Positions 6,555 to 21,009 of a DNA stretch of 64,000 nt are shown one piece after another. Both the position numbers and the translations under genes were made by a program. Under the pieces are notes generated by a model, which saw nothing but the letters and a program-made list of their open reading frames with translations, searched no databases and had not been told where the DNA came from. The stretch's first letter is position 1. Each line of letters opens with the position of its first letter. Source of the stretch: Ignavibacteria bacterium (lineage in GTDB: Bacteria; Bacteroidota; Ignavibacteria; Ignavibacteriales; Ignavibacteriaceae); assembly GCA_021286645.1 (NCBI GenBank), contig JAJTBZ010000097.1, positions 1 through 64,000 of the forward strand, read 5' to 3'.

Positions 6555-7409
6555 TTATCTGAATAAGGAGAGAACTGCCTGAGGTGCAGAGTTCAGCTGA
6601 GAAACCATAGAGGTTGCTGCCTGACCCAGAATGCTGCCCCGTGTAGCATTCAACTGTTCTGCTGCCATATCTGCATCGAACAGGCGGCTGACGCTCGATT
6701 GAGCGTTCGAGATACTTGTATTCAGCGTTTCTTCTTTAATATCGAGGCGCTGTACAAAGTTACCAATCTTTCCTAATGCTGTAGCTACTTCGCTCTTGAG
6801 TGTCGACAGGTTAGCCTGCAATGAGGTAATAGTTGACGAAGTGGTGAGCGATGTCTGGGTAACACTTTCGAAGTTGCTCAATGAACCATTAAAGCTGGTT
6901 GAAGAACCGGAAAGAATTGATGAAGCAAAATCGAGTGTAATTTTATCGGTATACGAGTTACCAACCTGGAATGCAAACCCGGCTTTAGCATCGCCCGAAC
7001 CGGTTAACAATGATGTATTGTTAAATTTCGTTGTTTCCAGAATTGACTGAACTTCAGTAGCCAGAGATTTAATATCCGAAGCAATAGCGGAACGGTCCGC
7101 GGTCGGGTTGGTAGCGTCTGAGAGTTTACCTTCGACCTTAATAAGCAAATCATTAACTGATAGTAATGATCCTTCTGCGGTAGATAACAGATTTTTTGCG
7201 CCAGAAACGTTGTTCTGAGCAGCTTTCATAACGGCGATTTTACCTTCGAGAGACTTACCAATATTGAAGCCTGATGTGTCATCTGCGACGTTATTAATCC
7301 GTTTTCCTGAAGCGAGACGAAGTTGTGCGGTAGCTGTTTCTTTGTTAACTTTTGCTAATGCATAGTACGCATTGAGAGCGTCAACGTTGGTATTGATCCT
7401 GAAACCCAT
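6555..7409 (-). CDS. fliC: Flagellin
   Basis: Flagellin is the filament subunit exported by the flagellar type III apparatus. At 284 residues this is a short one. The N-terminal D0/D1 part has the family pattern (RINTNVDALNAY, RLASGKRINNVADD) and the C-terminal D0 part ends in ILGQAATSMVSQLN then LFR; the variable centre is only about 80 residues and rich in Ser/Thr, so it could carry O-glycans. There is a strong Shine-Dalgarno (AAGGAGGT) five bases before the ATG. It is transcribed alone from a sigma-28 promoter, and no other flagellar gene is in the window. The FkbH/ACP glycan operon lies about 3 kb away. Confidence 0.97.
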   Translation of the reverse strand: MGFRINTNVDALNAYYALAKVNKETATAQLRLASGKRINNVADDTSGFNIGKSLEGKIAVMKAAQNNVSGAKNLLSTAEGSLLSVNDLLIKVEGKLSDATNPTADRSAIASDIKSLATEVQSILETTKFNNTSLLTGSGDAKAGFAFQVGNSYTDKITLDFASSILSGSSTSFNGSLSNFESVTQTSLTTSSTITSLQANLSTLKSEVATALGKIGNFVQRLDIKEETLNTSISNAQSSVSRLFDADMAAEQLNATRGSILGQAATSMVSQLNSAPQAVLSLFR

Positions 7410-7511: not shown

Positions 7512-7538
7512 TTATCGGAAGTAGTTAAAAAAACTTTA
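7512..7538 (-). promoter_or_regulatory. Sigma-28 (FliA) promoter of flagellin
   Basis: On the minus strand TAAAGTTT (7538-7531) is followed by exactly 11 bases and TCCGATAA (7519-7512). The classical sigma-28 consensus is TAAAGTTT-N11-GCCGATAA, so only one base differs. It lies about 103 bases upstream of the flagellin ATG. This is strong evidence that late flagellar gene control uses FliA here. Confidence 0.93.
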
Positions 7539-7725: not shown

Positions 7726-9180
7726 ATGAGCGGTCAGCGGTCGGTATTATTTAATGTTCTGGAAGAATATCCTGATTACTGCATTATGCTGGATGAGGAT
7801 GGAATAATTCTGAGCGCGAACAAAGCCTATCTTGGTAAAGTGCAAAAAAAATCGGCCGATGTAATTGGGCAGCGGTTTGAAACAATGCTCTATGATGCCG
7901 CCATGCTTAATTTTGAACATGCTTTTATAGACTGCCTTGAAGAAATGATAACGAAAAGCTTTGATTGCATGTTTACCGATGATGATGGTGAGCGATTTGA
8001 TGTATCGGTTTTTATGTCGCCCCAAAAATCGAAAGTGAAGAACAGCGCAAAACAGGTTTTGATAATAGCAAAGGATATCACGAGTCAGAAGAAAAATGAA
8101 GTTGACCTGCTTCGGTTTTATTATGTAGCGGAAAATACCGTTAATCCGTTGCAAATAACTGATTTGAGCGGTAAAATGATATACGTGAATCCCGCGTTTG
8201 TAAAGGCAAGCGGTTACAGCAGGGAAGAGCTATTAGGTAAAGACCCGAAAGTATTTAGCAGCTTAAAACATTCTTCTGCTTTTTGGGATGATATGTGGCG
8301 CACTATTGCCAGTGGTAAGGTGTGGGTAGGGGAAGTTGAAAATACACGGAAAACAGGAGAAGCGTTTTATACTCAGCTGCTGATATCACCAATAGTGAAT
8401 TCTGAACAAAAGGTTATAGGGTATTTCGGAATACATAGAGATTTGCACGAAAAGCGGAATCTTGAAAAACAGCTTATGCACACGCAGAAAATGGAAAGTA
8501 TCGGTACGCTCGCGGCCGGTGTTGCCCATGAAGTGGGTAACCCGCTTGCTTCAATCTCGGCCCTCGTGCAGATTATCCAGAGGCAGACTCAGGATGATTT
8601 TATTAAAGAAAAAATGGAGTTGGTAAAAAAACAAATTACCCGCATTTCGAAAATTATTCGTGATCTGGTAGATTTTTCGCGCCCATCCAATTATGAGATG
8701 AAACTTACCGATATAAATGATAATGTACGCGAGTCTATAGAGATTGTAAAGGTAGGTAAAAAGGCAAAAGATATAGATTTTATTATGGATCTGGATCGCT
8801 CCTTAGTTCCTTTGCATTTGGTTTCCGATCAGATTCAGCAGGTATTTGTAAATATCCTGATTAACGCTGTCGATGCAATTCTCGAAAAGAAAGCAACCGT
8901 AGGGGGTGCTGAAAAGGGCAGGATCCGCAGCTCGACTATGTTCAAGGATAACCGGTATGTAATTATTTTCGAGGATAATGGCATCGGGTTAAAAGAAGAA
9001 AATGTTTCAAAAATATTCGAGCCGTTCTTTACCACAAAAACAGAAGGTAAAGGAACGGGATTGGGGTTGTGGGTGTCGTATGGCATTATTAAGAGTTTTC
9101 AGGGAGAAATCCAGGTAGATAGTAAGTATTATGAATGGACCCGGTTTACCATTTATTTACCGGTGAATCCGAGTTTTTAA
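7726..9180 (+). CDS. NtrB-like PAS sensor histidine kinase
   Basis: This 484-residue kinase has no visible membrane segment and is probably cytoplasmic. PAS 1 covers about residues 10-120 and PAS 2 about 130-240 (MIYVNPAFVKASGYS). The dimerisation/phosphotransfer box AAGVAHEVGNPLASI carries the His at 268, and an HATPase domain follows with NILINAVDAI, EDNGIGL and GKGTGLGLW. The AHEVGNPL style is that of NtrB/AtoS/ZraS kinases that pair with sigma-54 activators, and one is encoded 9 bases downstream. The ATG is preceded by AAGGGTG. The upstream intergenic region is shared, divergently, with the flagellin promoter. The signal is unknown. Confidence 0.93.
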   Translation: MSGQRSVLFNVLEEYPDYCIMLDEDGIILSANKAYLGKVQKKSADVIGQRFETMLYDAAMLNFEHAFIDCLEEMITKSFDCMFTDDDGERFDVSVFMSPQKSKVKNSAKQVLIIAKDITSQKKNEVDLLRFYYVAENTVNPLQITDLSGKMIYVNPAFVKASGYSREELLGKDPKVFSSLKHSSAFWDDMWRTIASGKVWVGEVENTRKTGEAFYTQLLISPIVNSEQKVIGYFGIHRDLHEKRNLEKQLMHTQKMESIGTLAAGVAHEVGNPLASISALVQIIQRQTQDDFIKEKMELVKKQITRISKIIRDLVDFSRPSNYEMKLTDINDNVRESIEIVKVGKKAKDIDFIMDLDRSLVPLHLVSDQIQQVFVNILINAVDAILEKKATVGGAEKGRIRSSTMFKDNRYVIIFEDNGIGLKEENVSKIFEPFFTTKTEGKGTGLGLWVSYGIIKSFQGEIQVDSKYYEWTRFTIYLPVNPSF

Positions 9181-9189
9181 GAGGAAAAG

Positions 9190-10545
9190 ATGGCAGAAAA
9201 AATTCTTGTTGTAGATGATGAAGATATTATACGGGAGTCGCTTTCGTATATTTTAGTGAATGAAGGATATGAAGTAGATCAGGCAGAGAACGGGAAAATA
9301 GCTTTTGAAAAAGCCCTCGAAAAGACCTATGATCTGATTATAACGGATATCGAAATGCCCCAGATGAAAGGGACAGAACTTTTGGAGAAGGTTTCTGGGG
9401 TTTCAACCAGTACTTCTTTTATTGTTATTACCGCGTATGGCTCACTCGATACAGCAATTAAAGCGCTGCGGTCAGGTGCCCAGGATTATATACTAAAACC
9501 GGTAGAGTTCGATGAGTTGACAATAAAGATTCGACGATTGTTTGATCTAAAACACCTTATGCAGGAAAATCAGCTGCTTCGTAAGGAATTACAGCGTAAT
9601 TATGATTTTTCGCGCATTATCGGCAAGAGCCCGGCGATGAAAAGTATTTTCGATATGGTTACTACAGTTGCGCAAACTGATTCTACCGTTTTAATTACCG
9701 GCAACAGTGGTACAGGCAAGGAACTTATCGCGCGGGCAATTCACTTTAACAGTAAGCGGAAAGGGAAACCTTTTATCGCGGTTAACTGTGGCGCAATATC
9801 GGAGAATCTGATTGAAAGTGAATTATTTGGACATAAAAAGGGCGCGTTTACCGGTGCTATATCCGATAAAGAAGGGTATATGAAAGCCGCTGAAGGCGGA
9901 ACGTTGTTTCTTGATGAAGTGAGTGAAATGCCCCTGCAATTGCAGGTGAAGTTATTGCGTGTATTACAGGAAAAAGAGTGCACACCAGTAGGCTCCGCAA
10001 TCCCTTTCCCTATCAATATCCGCTTCCTGGCTTCGACGAACCGTAACTTGCAGGAAGAGATCAGTAAGAGTAAATTCCGTGAAGATTTATACTATCGGTT
10101 GAATGTTGTTGAAATTAATCTGCCTTCACTTAAACAGCGGAGGGACGATATTCCTATTCTGGTTGATCATTTTATAAATAAGTACCGGCATGAAATCGGC
10201 AAGAATATCCGTGGTGTAGAACCGGGTACATTACGTGCAATTATGAATTATGATTGGCGCGGAGAGGTTCGCGAGCTTGAAAATGCTATAGAGCGCGCGG
10301 TAATTTTTGCAAAGGGTGAGTTGATTACAACCAATGATTTACCCGACACTCTTCGCAGTATGAAAGATATACCTTTACCCGAAAAAGTAGGCTCGCTGGA
10401 TGAGTTCATGAAAAGGGTTGAGAAGGAATTCATTATCCGCGCTCTGGAAACATGTAATTATGATAAAGAGAAAGCGGCAAGCGCGCTTAATCTCGGGCTT
10501 TCAACTCTGTATCGGAAAATAAAAGATCTGGAAATCGAAATTTAA
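9190..10545 (+). CDS. NtrC-family sigma-54-dependent response regulator
   Basis: The 451-residue protein has a receiver domain (acceptor Asp53 in ITDIEMP), a AAA+ sigma-54 activator domain with Walker A (GNSGTGKE), the sigma-54-contacting GAFTGA loop and Walker B (GGTLFLDEV), and a C-terminal Fis-type helix-turn-helix (EKAASALNLGLSTLYRKI). Phosphorylated by the upstream kinase, it should activate sigma-54 promoters by ATP hydrolysis. GAGGA precedes the ATG, 9 bases after the kinase stop. I saw no clear TGGC-N8-TGC promoter in nearby intergenic regions, so its targets are probably elsewhere. It converges with the ACP gene, leaving two bases between stop codons. Confidence 0.95.
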   Translation: MAEKILVVDDEDIIRESLSYILVNEGYEVDQAENGKIAFEKALEKTYDLIITDIEMPQMKGTELLEKVSGVSTSTSFIVITAYGSLDTAIKALRSGAQDYILKPVEFDELTIKIRRLFDLKHLMQENQLLRKELQRNYDFSRIIGKSPAMKSIFDMVTTVAQTDSTVLITGNSGTGKELIARAIHFNSKRKGKPFIAVNCGAISENLIESELFGHKKGAFTGAISDKEGYMKAAEGGTLFLDEVSEMPLQLQVKLLRVLQEKECTPVGSAIPFPINIRFLASTNRNLQEEISKSKFREDLYYRLNVVEINLPSLKQRRDDIPILVDHFINKYRHEIGKNIRGVEPGTLRAIMNYDWRGEVRELENAIERAVIFAKGELITTNDLPDTLRSMKDIPLPEKVGSLDEFMKRVEKEFIIRALETCNYDKEKAASALNLGLSTLYRKIKDLEIEI

Positions 10546-10547
10546 TT

Positions 10548-10769
10548 CTATTGTACCAGGCGTGCCTGCAGGTACGCCTGTATTTCTGTAACAGAATACA
10601 ACTTGTCAATATCTGCCGCCGGTATCTCTACCTGAAATTGCTCCTGTAATTCCATGATAATTCTGATATGATTAATGGAATCCCAGTTTGCTGTTGTGTC
10701 TTTGCTGGCATTTTCAGAAATGTCGGTATCTAATATTTCAAAAAGGATGTTTTTAATTGTTTCTTTCAT
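10548..10769 (-). CDS. Acyl carrier protein
   Basis: This 73-residue acidic protein has the ACP fold pattern. The 4'-phosphopantetheine attachment site is probably Ser31 in WDSINHI, followed by a helix with an acidic face (IIMELQEQF). It is too divergent to be the housekeeping fatty-acid ACP and resembles the dedicated ACPs encoded beside FkbH-like proteins. Its ATG lies inside the last codons of the FkbH-like gene (17-base overlap), so translation is probably coupled. It is the last gene of the four-gene minus-strand operon and would carry the acyl group made or loaded by the FkbH-like protein. Confidence 0.9.
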   Translation of the reverse strand: MKETIKNILFEILDTDISENASKDTTANWDSINHIRIIMELQEQFQVEIPAADIDKLYSVTEIQAYLQARLVQ

Positions 10770-12405
10770 GGAGTACTTTTATTATAGGGTGTTCGGGCAG
10801 TAAAACAGCGGCCGAATCGATGGAATATAATTTGCTTCCGTCATCAAATAACTTGGTGAACGTAAAACCATTCTCATCATAAAAATCTTTAACTAATTCA
10901 TTTTTAGGAGTCGGGATATAAACGCCTGTTACCGTAAGCGGGCCATTTGTGCCAAGCGCTGCGAGAGTATGTTGTACAAAATATGACTCAATTTTCCTCC
11001 CTATTGCCCGGCAGCTCATTAATAGTGTATCAATTTCGTAACCGGTTGCGTGCTGCGGGCGGAATATCGCCATGATGATAGTACCATAATCGCCAACCTT
11101 ATCCACGGCAGAGCCAATGAATATTCTGCAAGCTTCATCCTGAATCATGCGGTGTATATCGGTTTCCGTATATCTCCGTGTAGTAAGATTGAACTGATTT
11201 GTTTTTTGAGTCATCTGGGCGGCCCGGGGATAGTCGGTTTCCTCCACTTCGCGAATGGTAAGGGTTATCTGCAAATTAGCAATATATTGTTCAAGTGAGG
11301 TGCATGAAGAACGTACCTCATCACGAGCGAAATTCTCGCGGTATTGCTCGGCTTTTTTTAAGTCCTCGGTTGTAAAGGATAACCGCGAGAAATAATTTTC
11401 ATCAATATCCGCAAAGAAAAGGGGTAAAAGCTCTACCCGCGCAGGAAATTCAGGAACTATTGCAGAGGTGTTTAACTTTACCAGTTCACGCTCGAACGGG
11501 CTGTCATCGATGAAGACGAGGCTGTCCTCGCCAATGTTCAACTCTCTTGCTATAGCGTGGATATTTTCATCCTTGGGCTGCCAATTGATTTTTTTACTTA
11601 TAAAATCATTCCACTGAAGTATTGAATGCGGGTGCTTGTCAAAAACTTCTTTTGCATCTGCTTCGTTATTCTTTGAACAAACAGCCAGTAAAATACCTTT
11701 TTTCGCAATCTCTTTTACTGCCCGCTGCAGTGATTTATAAATTGCCCCGCTGCCGTTATCTGCCAATTGAATTTTGTCTATACCGTCTTCACCAATAACA
11801 CCGCCCCAGAGCGTATTATCGAGATCAAGGACGAGACATTTTTTGTTTTGCCCCAGTAATGCCCTGATAGTAGCAGCGATCCGGCCTGCAATAACTTGCT
11901 GTCCTTTTTTCGAGTAGCGAACTTTACCATATAGCCAGAGCGCCTCATCGTGGAGCGCCAGTGAGCCGTGGGTTGTGTACAGGTCGGCAACTGGAAGGAC
12001 GTGGCAGCCGGGAACAGAGGAACTGAGTTCCAGGAGGAAATTGTTAAATGCATTCTGCATATAAAAGCTGTTTTCCGTCCCGGGGATGGTAATTTTGTTC
12101 ACACCGGGGAGAAGCACTATAGAGCTAATGAGAATAGGGGCGGTGGAATTCTTTCTGAAGAAATTGACTAATGAATTAATTTCTTCATGAACGGAATTGG
12201 AATTCCGGTTCGCAAAAAGAGTATTGCCATCGAGAAGAATGCAAATAAGATCGGGTTGAGACTTATATAAAGCGCTTTGTGTGTTCAGTATCTCGGTGGA
12301 ATACGAATTATAGGGCGCTACATACCATTCACTGCCCGGCAAAGATTTTTGCAGGTCTGCAGCCAGCAGGGTAACGGTAAAATTACTGAGTAGCGCGCAT
12401 TTCAT
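10753..12405 (-). CDS. FkbH-like HAD-IIIC protein (glyceroyl-ACP type)
   Basis: This 550-residue protein has three parts: an N-terminal region resembling SGNH-type folds (about 1-170), a HAD-IIIC phosphatase domain with motif I DLDNTLWGG (nucleophile and acid Asp194/196) and a later motif with VFIDDSPFERE, and a C-terminal GNAT-like region (about 370-540; TQKTNQFNLTTRRYT is typical of FkbH). Characterised FkbH-family enzymes dephosphorylate 1,3-bisphosphoglycerate and load the glyceroyl group on an ACP; an ACP gene overlaps this one. No polyketide synthase is nearby, so the likely acceptor is a glycan or other surface molecule rather than a polyketide. It starts at ATG, 16 bases after the upstream stop. 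Confidence 0.9.
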   Translation of the reverse strand: MKCALLSNFTVTLLAADLQKSLPGSEWYVAPYNSYSTEILNTQSALYKSQPDLICILLDGNTLFANRNSNSVHEEINSLVNFFRKNSTAPILISSIVLLPGVNKITIPGTENSFYMQNAFNNFLLELSSSVPGCHVLPVADLYTTHGSLALHDEALWLYGKVRYSKKGQQVIAGRIAATIRALLGQNKKCLVLDLDNTLWGGVIGEDGIDKIQLADNGSGAIYKSLQRAVKEIAKKGILLAVCSKNNEADAKEVFDKHPHSILQWNDFISKKINWQPKDENIHAIARELNIGEDSLVFIDDSPFERELVKLNTSAIVPEFPARVELLPLFFADIDENYFSRLSFTTEDLKKAEQYRENFARDEVRSSCTSLEQYIANLQITLTIREVEETDYPRAAQMTQKTNQFNLTTRRYTETDIHRMIQDEACRIFIGSAVDKVGDYGTIIMAIFRPQHATGYEIDTLLMSCRAIGRKIESYFVQHTLAALGTNGPLTVTGVYIPTPKNELVKDFYDENGFTFTKLFDDGSKLYSIDSAAVLLPEHPIIKVLHERNN

Positions 12406-12421
12406 TCTATAACTACTTCCT

Positions 12422-13339
12422 TTACCAGGAGATTAATTCAGCAATACCGAAGCCTTCTTTCCCAAAGTCATTGCCGTTGTAAAACAGAAAATATTTTCCA
12501 TTAAGCTCTAAAAGGTTTGGGAAATAGAGCATTTGTGAATCGAAATCGCTTTCGGAGTGATTAAGGTTTAGCTGATCGTCGATACGAGTCCATGTGAGGC
12601 CGTCATCCGAAATTGAGCAGCCACAATGGTAGCGCATATCCATGGTGCGGCGTGTATAGAACAGCATATATTTATCATTAACCTTATTGATTTGCGGCCT
12701 GCCCAGGCCATGCTCATACGCCGGGTTGTACGTAACGCATAAATGCCCCTGCCTTCCGGTATTTATACCATCGGGGGTTTCTATATGATATACGTTATAG
12801 GTTGGACGCATTTTGCCGCCCACGGTTTCCCATTTTGTTCCGGCAGAATACCACATGCGAACGATACCGTTTTCCTTGAGTATAGTGGCGCCGGAACGGG
12901 TCGCCAGGCCTTCATCCGAACGATCTAATATCGGGGCGGAACTTGCACGGGTAAAGGTATTACCATTATCGGTACTGATTCCCAGTCCGCCAAACATAAA
13001 GTATGGCACTTTATGGCCGAGCTGAAAACCCGTATAGTATAAGTAAATTTTATCATCCAGCCGATAAACACTGGCTGGGAAAACACCATTCTCATCGAAT
13101 GTACCGGGTTCGCCCAAATCAATCAGTGGTTTTTCGGATATGCCAATAACCTGTGTAAGGTCATGCGCGTTCAGATCGACGTAAGCCATGCGAGATATTC
13201 CATTTGCATCGAGACCGCCAACGAATACCCTGACGATATCAGCAGATAGTTGAATAGGCGATGGCGCCATAGCGTGGCTTTGCCACCAGTCGTATTGTTG
13301 AGTGAACTGAAATACCAGGCCGAGTTTTTTCCATTTCAT
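12422..13339 (-). CDS. Five-bladed beta-propeller glycosidase-like protein
   Basis: The 305-residue protein has no signal peptide. It shows repeated strand motifs typical of GH43/GH32/GH130-like five-bladed propellers: DKIYLYYTG, GISTDNG, GIVRMWYSAG, DKYMLFYTRR, SISDDGLTW and GKYFLFYNGND. Cytoplasmic proteins of this type occur in glycan biosynthesis clusters and may act as sugar-modifying or transferase-like proteins rather than exported hydrolases. It lies between the NeuD-like and FkbH-like genes, with gaps of 8 and 16 bases, so a role in the same glycan modification is inferred. I cannot assign catalytic residues with certainty. Confidence 0.75.
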   Translation of the reverse strand: MKWKKLGLVFQFTQQYDWWQSHAMAPSPIQLSADIVRVFVGGLDANGISRMAYVDLNAHDLTQVIGISEKPLIDLGEPGTFDENGVFPASVYRLDDKIYLYYTGFQLGHKVPYFMFGGLGISTDNGNTFTRASSAPILDRSDEGLATRSGATILKENGIVRMWYSAGTKWETVGGKMRPTYNVYHIETPDGINTGRQGHLCVTYNPAYEHGLGRPQINKVNDKYMLFYTRRTMDMRYHCGCSISDDGLTWTRIDDQLNLNHSESDFDSQMLYFPNLLELNGKYFLFYNGNDFGKEGFGIAELISW

Positions 13340-13347
13340 TATAATAC

Positions 13348-14013
13348 CTATATGTATTTTATATAATCCATGGCTGCAAGCCCGGTATCTTTGGCCGGGT
13401 TGCCACGGAATACATTTGGTTTGTCAATATTAGTGCCGGCTACCGCTCCCGCAGCAAGAAAGGCACCGGATCCTACAGTAATTTTATCGGTAATAATTGC
13501 CCCCAGACCTATGAAACTGCCACTCCCGATCCGGGTAAAGCCGCCAATATTTGTCCCGGCTGCTAAAAAAACATTGTCTTCGATATTGGCAGAGTGAGCT
13601 ATAAGAGAACCTGAGCAGCATACGACATTATTTCCGATATGAACCATTGGTCCGATAGAACAATGGTCATAAATGAAAACATTTTCGCCTATATGTGCCG
13701 ATTTTGAAATATAAGCAGCGGGGCTAATGAGTGATGCAAAACGATAACCCATCAGTCGGCCGCGGGTATAGAGGGCGGTTCTATCGGCATTCATTCGGGT
13801 AAATGAAACAGCGGTAAACAGAACGTGTGCATCTGCCGGATATTGCTCGGGAAGAAGGTTAAAATCAATTACCGGTTTCCCCATAAAGAGCGGGTCGCTA
13901 ATAAACTCCGGATCAACGGCGAAAGCTGTAACGGAATATTCCGGAACCCGGGAGAAATAATCGAATGCTACCCGTGCCGTTTCGCCTACCCCTGCGATGA
14001 TAACTTTTTTCAC
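13348..14013 (-). CDS. NeuD/PglD-like sugar acyltransferase (left-handed beta-helix)
   Basis: This 221-residue protein has an N-terminal Rossmann-like PglD_N domain (KKVIIAGVGETARVAFD) and a C-terminal hexapeptide-repeat beta-helix (SKSAHIGENVFI, GNNVVCCSGSLIAHSANIEDNVFLAAG), with a likely catalytic His in LIAHSANI. Family members transfer acetyl or other acyl groups from CoA or ACP to amino- or hydroxy-sugars, such as sialic acid or UDP-bacillosamine precursors. It uses a GTG start. It is the first gene of the operon with the propeller, FkbH-like and ACP genes, so its donor could be the acyl-ACP rather than acetyl-CoA; this is inference. Confidence 0.88.
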   Translation of the reverse strand: MKKVIIAGVGETARVAFDYFSRVPEYSVTAFAVDPEFISDPLFMGKPVIDFNLLPEQYPADAHVLFTAVSFTRMNADRTALYTRGRLMGYRFASLISPAAYISKSAHIGENVFIYDHCSIGPMVHIGNNVVCCSGSLIAHSANIEDNVFLAAGTNIGGFTRIGSGSFIGLGAIITDKITVGSGAFLAAGAVAGTNIDKPNVFRGNPAKDTGLAAMDYIKYI

Positions 14014-18219: not shown

Positions 18220-21009
18220 ATGAAGGTTAGAGGACTAATTGTGCTTTTCCTTGCGATATCGTGCGTTGCATATTCGCAAATCAAGCTGCAATTTATCACG
18301 GTTAACCAGTACGGGAACAACCTGTACCTGGATAACATTGCCGCAGGCAAGCAGAAAACCATTGATGTTGGTATTCTGAATGTTGATAAAATATTCAAGG
18401 ATACGAACTATTCAGTTTCCGCCACGAATTTTTCGGCCGCGCCCATTGTAACGGTAATAAATATGGGCAGAAGTGCCATTACCACGCCATTTGATGTTAA
18501 GTTGAAAGTCACTCCCGGCAGCTATGTAAGTACAAAATCGGTAAGTGCACTCAACCCGGGGAAAGCAGTTGCTATTACGTTTGATAATTTAACCATGCCG
18601 CTGAATACGCAGTTTACTGTTGAAGCGAGTGTTAATGTACCCGGTGATGAAGAAACAGGCAATAACGTGTTAACTTTTAATTCGTATTACCTGCCAGGTG
18701 CTCCACGTAAAATAGTAATTGAAGAATTTACCAGCTCAACATGCGGCCCTTGCGCGGCTAACAACCCCACGCTTGACGCTTATATTTCAGCGAATTTTGA
18801 TAAGGTAGTTCCTATTAAATATCACATGAACTGGCCTTCGCCGGGTAATGACCCGATGTACGCGTACAATTCATCGCAAAATACTGACCGCCGTTCGTAT
18901 TATTCCATTAATGCTGTTCCTACGGGCGTAGTAGATGGAATTTTTGCACCGGGACTTCCGGTTGCAGCCGGGCTGCCCGGAATAGTTGATCCACGCTTAC
19001 AAACCGGTTCACCCATTGGTATTTCAGTTACCAATACCCGAATTGGCGATACATTACAGGCAGATGTTACCGTTAATATACTTGGTCCAATGAAAGCCGG
19101 TAATTATTACCTTCGCGTTGCTGCGGTTGAGCGTGCTATTCATTATGCTACAGCTCCCGGTTCAAACGGGGAAAAAGATTTTTATGATGTATTCCGTAAA
19201 GCGTTTCCCGGCAGCCTTGGCACAGTATTACCAACGGCAGCTGGTACATATAACTTCCAGTTTAAGTACAAAATTGATTCTCCGACCTGGCAGGATTCAA
19301 TGATGTATACTGCGGTTTTCGTACAGAATGATGTAACAAAAGAAATTATTAACGCTGCAAAATCACGTGCAGTTGTTGATAAAACTGAAAAAGTACTCGC
19401 TTCTGCATCCGTAGTTGTTGTCAGGCCGGAAATGGCAATAGACAGAATTGCAGGGCCGGCACCGATTCGATTCAGCAGCGCAGCTATGAAAACAACCTCG
19501 CCGTATTATACAACATTATTTGAAGGGGCATTCCCTCCCGCTGGCTATAAGTTGGTAAATCCGGATAACGGCCTCACTTTTGAACCTTCATCAGCAGCGA
19601 ATGGCCCGTCATTTGGTGGTTCTCAATCGGTAATTATGAAATTTTATGATTATAGCAGTGCAAATGCTTCCGATACATTAATTACCCCGTCATTTACTGA
19701 TCTTACTGCTAATGATACTGTTAAGTTCGATTACGCGTACACTTCGTATGACGCTGAAAATGACAGGTTGATTGTACGCCTCTCGAAAGATGGCGGTATA
19801 ACCTGGCCATATACGATTTTCGATAAAATGGGCAGCGCGCTGCAAACTGCTGCCGCGACCCATAACTCATTTGTTCCAACAGCAGATCAGTGGAAGACAT
19901 TCAGCTATTCATTAAGTGAGGTTTTAGGAACACAGATTACCCGTAATGTAACTACAAAACAGGGTTGGAATATGATTTCAGTTCCTGTTACCCCTGCAAC
20001 TCCGGCGATTGCAACATTATTTCCTGGTGCTACCTCGCAGTTCTATGCATTCAATGGTGCATATACGGTTGTACAGAACGGCGTGGCAGGACAGGGTTTC
20101 TGGGCCCGTTTTGATGCAGTGAATACATATCCCGTACTGGGTACTCCAATTGCAACTTCCAGCCTGCCGGTTGCCTCTGGCTGGAACCTGATAGGCCCTT
20201 ATGATAAGGCGGTAACCGTTTCTGCCGTTACTTCTACACCGGCCGGCATTGTAAATTCTGTTTTCTATGGCTATGATAATGGCTATAATACGGCAACGAC
20301 ACTCACTCCCGGTCAGGCATATTGGGTGCGTACCACTCAGTCAGGTCAGTTGAATTTTAACACTACCGTCGAAAAATCAACTCCGATAGCAGAAAAGGCT
20401 CCGGCTGGTATGCAGATTATATTTACCGATAACAGCGGTAAAACATCAGTGCTGTACCTGAGTGAAGAAAAGAACAGTCTGCAAAGATATGAGCTGCCTC
20501 CGCTGCCACCTTCAGGCATTTTTGATATCCGCTTTGGTTCTGACAGATATATTGAAAGTGCTGCAATTCAGCAGAATGTTAGGTTACAGGGTGTGCAGTT
20601 CCCCGTACACGTAAAAGTTACAGGCGGTGATGCACAACTTTCAGATAATGTTGGTTCATTCCGCGCAAGCATGAAAAATGGAGAAGAAGTTGTATTAACC
20701 AATCCGGCAATGACAACTTTAGCCATTAACGGTGTAAGTGCAGCAGTAACATTCTCGTTAAATCAAAATTATCCAAACCCGTTTAACCCGAGCACCAGTA
20801 TCAGTTATACTGTACCTGCTAACGGATTAGTTATACTGAAGGTATATGACGTTTTGGGCCGTGAATCGGCAATGCTGGTAAATACAGTACAAAATGCCGG
20901 CAGATATACCGTAAGCTTTAATGCTTCTTCCTTGCCAAGCGGCACATATTTCTATGAATTACGTGCGGGCGGAGCAACGCAGATTAAGAAAATGATGCTC
21001 ATCAAGTAA
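18220..21009 (+). CDS. T9SS cargo: Omp28/thioredoxin-like, jelly-roll and GWN modules
   Basis: This 929-residue protein has a Sec signal peptide (about 1-20, ending in AYSQ). A beta-sandwich N-terminal region (about 20-160) is followed by an Omp28/thioredoxin-like domain with a CGPC motif (about residue 180). Next come a choice-of-anchor-J-like jelly roll (about 425-570), two copies of a module starting GWNMISVPV and GWNLIGPYD (about 585-720), and a type A T9SS sorting domain (LNQNYPNPFNPSTSI, ending KMMLIK). It should be exported by Sec and T9SS and anchored or released at the surface. The CGPC motif suggests thiol chemistry or a degenerate redox fold; the function is otherwise unknown. GGAGA precedes the ATG, and a terminator follows. 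Confidence 0.88.
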   Translation: MKVRGLIVLFLAISCVAYSQIKLQFITVNQYGNNLYLDNIAAGKQKTIDVGILNVDKIFKDTNYSVSATNFSAAPIVTVINMGRSAITTPFDVKLKVTPGSYVSTKSVSALNPGKAVAITFDNLTMPLNTQFTVEASVNVPGDEETGNNVLTFNSYYLPGAPRKIVIEEFTSSTCGPCAANNPTLDAYISANFDKVVPIKYHMNWPSPGNDPMYAYNSSQNTDRRSYYSINAVPTGVVDGIFAPGLPVAAGLPGIVDPRLQTGSPIGISVTNTRIGDTLQADVTVNILGPMKAGNYYLRVAAVERAIHYATAPGSNGEKDFYDVFRKAFPGSLGTVLPTAAGTYNFQFKYKIDSPTWQDSMMYTAVFVQNDVTKEIINAAKSRAVVDKTEKVLASASVVVVRPEMAIDRIAGPAPIRFSSAAMKTTSPYYTTLFEGAFPPAGYKLVNPDNGLTFEPSSAANGPSFGGSQSVIMKFYDYSSANASDTLITPSFTDLTANDTVKFDYAYTSYDAENDRLIVRLSKDGGITWPYTIFDKMGSALQTAAATHNSFVPTADQWKTFSYSLSEVLGTQITRNVTTKQGWNMISVPVTPATPAIATLFPGATSQFYAFNGAYTVVQNGVAGQGFWARFDAVNTYPVLGTPIATSSLPVASGWNLIGPYDKAVTVSAVTSTPAGIVNSVFYGYDNGYNTATTLTPGQAYWVRTTQSGQLNFNTTVEKSTPIAEKAPAGMQIIFTDNSGKTSVLYLSEEKNSLQRYELPPLPPSGIFDIRFGSDRYIESAAIQQNVRLQGVQFPVHVKVTGGDAQLSDNVGSFRASMKNGEEVVLTNPAMTTLAINGVSAAVTFSLNQNYPNPFNPSTSISYTVPANGLVILKVYDVLGRESAMLVNTVQNAGRYTVSFNASSLPSGTYFYELRAGGATQIKKMMLIK

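Follow-up and report, generated by a model that had tools for sequence, protein, structure and literature searches.

On balance, the evidence tilts towards a sugar acylation function for a four-gene operon in a 64,000-nucleotide stretch of DNA (hereafter the window) from an Ignavibacteria bacterium (assembly GCA_021286645.1, contig JAJTBZ010000097.1, positions 1 to 64,000 of the forward strand), in which an FkbH enzyme would make an activated C3 acid in the form of a glyceroyl-acyl carrier protein (glyceroyl-ACP) and a NeuD-like acyltransferase would place it on an amino sugar. Each catalytic step is assigned here from the family to which the protein belongs, and glyceroyl is taken as presumably the simplest acyl group. 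The operon joins two recurrent modules, and its exact gene set is unique among what was searched. The component enzyme families are known and only their combination has not been found elsewhere in that material, which points to a wider, little-described route of sugar decoration.

The minus strand of the window carries the four open reading frames in the order NeuD-like acyltransferase, five-bladed propeller protein, FkbH and ACP (Table 1). The first three lie 8 and 16 bases apart, and the FkbH and ACP frames overlap by 17 bases, so that a re-check of the open reading frames reproduced the operon, gene order and spacing given in a preliminary description of this DNA. The short gaps and the overlap argue for joint expression of the four genes.

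FkbH-type enzymes take glyceroyl from 1,3-bisphosphoglycerate and load it onto an ACP, classically in polyketide biosynthesis. The FkbH protein of the window, the only one in the genome, is assigned to this family with a score far above the curated cut-off of TIGR01686 (313.7 versus 146.65 bits), as had been proposed. Its structural model has three domains (mean predicted local distance difference test, pLDDT, 84), of which the N-terminal alpha/beta part and the HAD domain match 3slr in structure comparison and the C-terminal part has a GNAT fold; the FkbH_N domain (PF21211) has no match anywhere in the genome. A tree of FkbH proteins does not resolve its position, the VOC-linked FkbHs being nearest by path. 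The DLDNTLWGG motif and the carrier serine (W-D-S31) are both where they had been described. Loss of the HAD catalytic residues, which the preliminary description had named as a reason to give up the idea, is not seen, since D194, D196, T198, S244, K245, D300 and D301 are invariant in an alignment of 17 sequences; in the same alignment Cys465 is invariant and Cys243 of the CSKN motif is variable. In a first step, the GNAT-like domain would take up glyceroyl from 1,3-bisphosphoglycerate in an enzyme thioester, with Cys465 as the proposed nucleophile, the HAD domain would remove the phosphate, and the glyceroyl group would pass to the phosphopantetheine arm at Ser31 of the ACP. This small protein passes the gathering score of PF00550 (23.1 versus 20.8 bits) and lies far below the cut-off of the fatty-acid ACP family TIGR00517 (28.6 versus 70.45 bits), as would suit a specialised carrier rather than a fatty-acid ACP. 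It is one of four PP-binding matches in the genome, and the housekeeping ACP is likely the one on contig C90.

In a second step, the NeuD-like enzyme would N-acylate a nucleotide-activated amino-deoxysugar. Since the enzyme is linked to an ACP, glyceroyl-ACP rather than acetyl-CoA is proposed as the donor, and the acceptor would come from genes elsewhere in the genome, such as a LegB/LegC-type locus on contig C80. The protein resembles the acetyltransferases NeuD, PglD and FdtC in its left-handed beta-helix and in its conserved catalytic histidine (H140), which is invariant across 29 aligned NeuD sequences, but differs from them in belonging to a distinct, propeller-linked subfamily and in its association with an ACP. 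With LpxA and LpxD it would share a beta-helix, an acyl-ACP donor and a nucleotide-sugar acceptor; unlike these it is a member of a different family, has a dedicated ACP and is predicted to transfer a short polar acyl group. The earlier suggestion that the beta-helix enzyme acts as a sugar acyltransferase gains support from the presence of NeuD-propeller pairs in amino-sugar loci and of beta-helix, GNAT and MBOAT enzymes beside FkbH-ACP pairs. In a third step the propeller protein, a long-standing partner of this NeuD subfamily, would probably serve as a sugar-binding or glycosidase-like helper, and the decorated sugar would become part of a surface glycan, flagellin being a possible carrier.

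The propeller protein was correctly recognised as five-bladed: its model (pLDDT 96) most closely resembles those of GH130 phosphorylases and of GH43 enzymes, with template modelling (TM) scores of up to 0.75. In family scans it is weakly similar to GH32, GH130 and GH43, with the likeness to GH130 lying in the fold rather than in the profile score (21.4 bits, gathering score 26); the GH32 N-terminal domain PF00251 scores 26.7 versus 22.1 bits, yet no single stretch passes alone. The family is widespread and its members are mostly annotated as "hypothetical protein". If the proposed route is true, acyl transfer to amino sugars, near flagellar genes in several phyla, would be the first functional setting for this family.

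The wider distribution of the FkbH-ACP pair bears on what the acyl group is for. An FkbH match is carried by 15 genomes of the phylum besides the window genome, and reading of the flanking genes revealed an ACP at 14 of these 15 loci, the pair recurring in surface-glycan loci. A FabF-like or polyketide-type ketosynthase was found at none of the 15, while the positive control was detected. This supports the earlier proposal that FkbH and ACP can make acyl-ACP outside polyketide synthesis, and such operons do not always sit beside polyketide synthases. That the pair is a polyketide or tetronate remnant, which loads glyceroyl or an extender unit on the way to a polyketide-type product, is therefore very improbable in our view and largely refuted. 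This would be the classical role of FkbH, and plasmid pOB3b3 of Methylosinus has FkbH-ACP in just that setting, beside KASIII, an E2-like protein and a type I polyketide synthase. The window pair also agrees with the FkbH/OzmB systems for methoxymalonyl and tetronate loading in its paired ACP and its intact HAD and GNAT-like residues. However, the genome has no polyketide synthase or multidomain ketosynthase, as had been stated, just two stand-alone ketosynthases of FabF size; there are no extender-tailoring or tetronate genes, the operon has no KASIII or Agg-like gene, and the partner in it is a sugar acyltransferase.

Near the FkbH-ACP pair, nearly all of the 15 loci have a hexapeptide or NeuD-like enzyme (L079, L086, L088, L089, L090, L092), a GNAT (L080, L082, L085) or an MBOAT protein (L083, L084, L087, L091); at L078 the sole candidate is a gene of GNAT-like appearance without Pfam confirmation, and at L081 a partial NeuD-like match. 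A plasmid of Niveispirillum carries FkbH-ACP-WcbI. We tentatively suggest that FkbH-ACP may be a plug-in module that donates acyl groups for surface-glycan acylation in general, parallel to DltA-DltC but fed by 1,3-bisphosphoglycerate, an intermediate of glycolysis, instead of ATP activation, and that it serves NeuD-type beta-helix, GNAT, MBOAT and WcbI enzymes, with the window operon as its NeuD-propeller version. In the Dlt system (DltA, DltC and the MBOAT protein DltB) a dedicated carrier likewise feeds the acylation of a surface polymer; the window operon differs in having FkbH as the loader in place of an AMP-forming ligase, and a soluble NeuD as the transferase. Such a module, if real, would explain why many surface-polysaccharide loci have FkbH and ACP genes but no polyketide synthase. 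The four MBOAT loci mirror the Dlt set, with FkbH in the place of the ligase, and no description of FkbH-ACP-MBOAT gene sets was found in the literature searched. Loci L086 and L088 hold NeuD, ACP, KASIII, SDR, FkbH-ACP, an AcpS-like gene and DegT, and the former has its own Pfam-confirmed phosphopantetheinyl transferase (AcpS-like); this gene set is apparently a self-contained acyl-sugar cluster.

The NeuD-propeller pair has a distribution of its own. A propeller search of 84,980 species genomes yielded 38 loci, spread over many phyla. Within the phylum, a profile search of 395 genomes matched 11 more, and 10 of these hold a full-length member of the family, which gives 48 loci in total; many of these contigs are short, and the absence of a gene from them is incomplete evidence. 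A NeuD-like gene lies in the same stretch as the propeller gene at 35 of the 48 loci, and directly upstream on the same strand, with a gap of 0-61 bases, at 24. Commonly nearby are genes for a methyltransferase, a GNAT/FemAB-like protein, an FdtA-like isomerase and a DegT aminotransferase, a set that would fit a pathway of the 3-amino-3,6-dideoxyhexose type, and Ruegeria TM1040 has much the same gene set under plain annotation. At five loci (L047, L049, L050, L053, L113) the pair comes with genes for an ACP, a DltA-like ligase and a FabG-like reductase, which could supply these two proteins with acyl-ACP by an independent route. In the tree of NeuD proteins, the window protein falls within the propeller-linked clade (support 91/94) as its most divergent member. 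The motif GNH...SSH is well kept in the members without an ACP (GNH in 25/25, the His of SSH in 23/25) and lost in the ACP-linked ones including that of the window (GNH in 1/6, the His of SSH in 0/6), which may be a sign of acyl-ACP use but is suggestive only.

Several observations weigh against a glyceroyl-ACP-dependent NeuD. The window protein misses the cut-off of the NeuD/PglB/VioB family TIGR03570, although the match (147.6 versus 160.8 bits, E 3.5e-43) is close enough to bear out the earlier NeuD/PglD-like assignment. The five other ACP-linked NeuDs are a single clade that excludes the window protein, and common descent rather than function may account for the motif correlation. FkbH is absent from all 48 propeller loci, and the pairing of FkbH with NeuD thus rests on one operon: the preliminary description had proposed to look for the same four-gene order in related genomes, and no second instance turned up among the genomes and loci searched, so that the order is not supported as a recurring unit. 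A VOC protein accompanies FkbH-ACP in several relatives but is missing from the window operon, the acceptor-sugar genes sit outside the operon, and the genome has no proper FdtA. Could the two pairs then be unrelated functions that share an operon, with NeuD acetylating a sugar from acetyl-CoA together with the propeller protein, and FkbH-ACP feeding a GNAT or MBOAT enzyme encoded elsewhere? In every other locus with close homologues one pair is present and the other missing, and the genome has another row of acyl-AMP ligase, ACP and MBOAT-size membrane protein on contig C41 (L121, 3305-6759), which appears to be an independent acylation cluster. This cluster has its own ACP, which is among the four PP-binding matches, however, and the tight spacing of the operon, the recurrence of an ACP with NeuD and propeller at the five loci above, and the window NeuD motif, which deviates from that of the ACP-less members like those of the ACP-linked ones, make such a split function unlikely in our judgement.

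Returning to an acyl group made by FkbH for NeuD, its chemical nature may be sought in known systems. Campylobacter offers a stronger precedent than the preliminary description had stated: the flagellin of C. jejuni 11168 carries 5-(2,3-di-O-methylglyceroyl)amino pseudaminic acid in a Cj1295-dependent manner (PMC3068675), and strains 12661 and 12664 are without the di-O-methylglyceroyl modification, one of them lacking cj1301, annotated as an epimerase, and the other having cj1302, which encodes an FkbH domain, as a pseudogene (PMC7099621). The link between the loss of the glyceroyl group and the defects in cj1301 and cj1302 is drawn here and not by those authors, and the strains differ in other genes too. 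The Cj1295/Cj1301/Cj1302 locus resembles the window operon in placing an FkbH-domain protein in a sugar locus, and its product, with a glyceric-acid type acyl group amide-linked to a flagellin amino sugar, resembles the one proposed here. It differs in that the window genome has no NeuB, and hence no pseudaminic acid, and in that the operon has the NeuD-like and propeller genes, no VOC gene and no homologue of Cj1295 (DUF4910). On the Maritalea plasmid pHL2708Y3 (L172, 3351-13664), pseB, FkbH, SDR, a DUF4910/DUF2172 protein, which we take to be of the Cj1295 family, and NeuB lie in one cluster, likely a Campylobacter-type glyceroyl-nonulosonate cluster on a plasmid. Locus L080 has pseudaminic-acid genes with VOC, FkbH, ACP and a distant propeller. 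Flagellin islands of Aeromonas and of enterobacteria also hold ACP, reductase and ligase genes (PMC7874193; PMC4875605).

These examples raise the question whether the group is processed beyond glyceroyl by O-methylation or oxidation, for instance to di-O-methylglyceroyl as in Campylobacter (PMC3068675), lactoyl or methoxymalonyl, by enzymes encoded elsewhere and acting before or after transfer. Methyltransferases and VOC, SDR or KASIII genes lie beside FkbH-ACP or NeuD-propeller in many relatives. The operon itself has no methyltransferase, dehydrogenase or VOC gene, and we consider such processing somewhat unlikely. If the proposed route is right, the operon provides a testable gene set for glyceroyl-decorated sugars; no assay of the FkbH-dependent step of Campylobacter was found in the literature searched.

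For the acceptor, LegB (above cut-off) is encoded on contig C80 along with a NeuD-like enzyme and a LegC/PseC-like aminotransferase, which makes a UDP-4-amino-4,6-dideoxysugar plausible. An FdtA-type 3-amino sugar was rejected, the FdtA match on contig C69 being weak. Pseudaminic and legionaminic acid were rejected for this genome, since NeuB/PseI is absent from the genome and its single NeuB-family match is a DAHP-synthase-like gene in a trp cluster. Neither is there a Maf/MptE transferase match in the genome, so that Maf-type flagellin transfer was rejected, but other types of flagellin glycosyltransferase may exist. Without NeuB and Maf, the operon is not the Campylobacter pseudaminic-acid pathway.

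Table 1. Features of the window around the acyl-ACP and NeuD-like operon.
Feature	Position	Strand	Remarks
NeuD/PglD-like left-handed beta-helix acyltransferase	13348-14013	minus	first gene, 221 aa, GTG start
Five-bladed propeller protein, GH130/GH43-like fold	12422-13339	minus	305 aa
FkbH: N-terminal alpha/beta, HAD-IIIC phosphatase, C-terminal GNAT-like acyltransferase	10753-12405	minus	550 aa
Dedicated ACP	10548-10769	minus	last gene, 73 aa, PF00550
NeuD-like invariant His140	13594-13596	minus	alignment
Propeller FDENG motif (Asp82 and Gly85 invariant)	13085-13099	minus	alignment
HAD motif I DLDNTLWGG (D194, D196)	11800-11826	minus	FkbH residues 194-202
FkbH Cys465 of invariant SCR triplet, GNAT-like domain	11011-11013	minus	proposed acyl-enzyme nucleophile (inference)
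ACP Ser31 codon, phosphopantetheine attachment (W-D-S)	10677-10679	minus	sequence; alignment with ACPs of related FkbH loci
Flagellin, possible acceptor protein	6555-7409	minus	separate transcription unit; family scan
Sigma-28-like promoter, 1 mismatch	7512-7538	minus	about 100 bases upstream of flagellin start
PAS histidine kinase and sigma-54 response regulator pair	7726-10545		

Whether the final acceptor is flagellin, as in a glycosylation island, rather than lipopolysaccharide or another surface polysaccharide, is a matter on which we incline slightly to the doubtful side. The flagellin gene does lie about 3.1 kb from the operon, as had been noted, and the closest relative of the propeller protein (L021, 54%) adjoins flgI, flgM, flgK and an flgL-like gene. 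Flagellar genes occur within about 10 kb of the propeller gene also at L034, L035, L044, L058 and L109, which makes 6 of the 48 loci in a scan that was not exhaustive, where one or two would be expected by chance at our own rough estimate of about 3% per locus; the majority of propeller loci have no flagellar gene in view. A claim that flagellin is the proven target does not hold up, given the absence of NeuB and Maf from the genome and of a convincing sigma-28 site at the operon: upstream of NeuD, no sigma-28 or sigma-54 site was better than chance, and control of the operon by either factor was rejected. The two-component pair between flagellin and operon is conserved without the flagellin. 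Its response regulator was found in 31 of 41 relatives (E below 1e-150), and in the 13 inspected the kinase adjoins it and no homologue of the window flagellin is nearby. In an empty-site test, the flanks of the regulator differ among these 13 and offer no clean insertion site. The relative whose full-length response regulator comes closest, G013, has two FdtA-like genes and a gene for a DegT-like aminotransferase in the operon-equivalent flank (L154, 1915-3909), which suggests that this spot takes up sugar genes. Further along the window, a large secreted protein (18220-21009) has a C-terminus (NYPNPFNPSTSISY...) like a type IX secretion system sorting domain.

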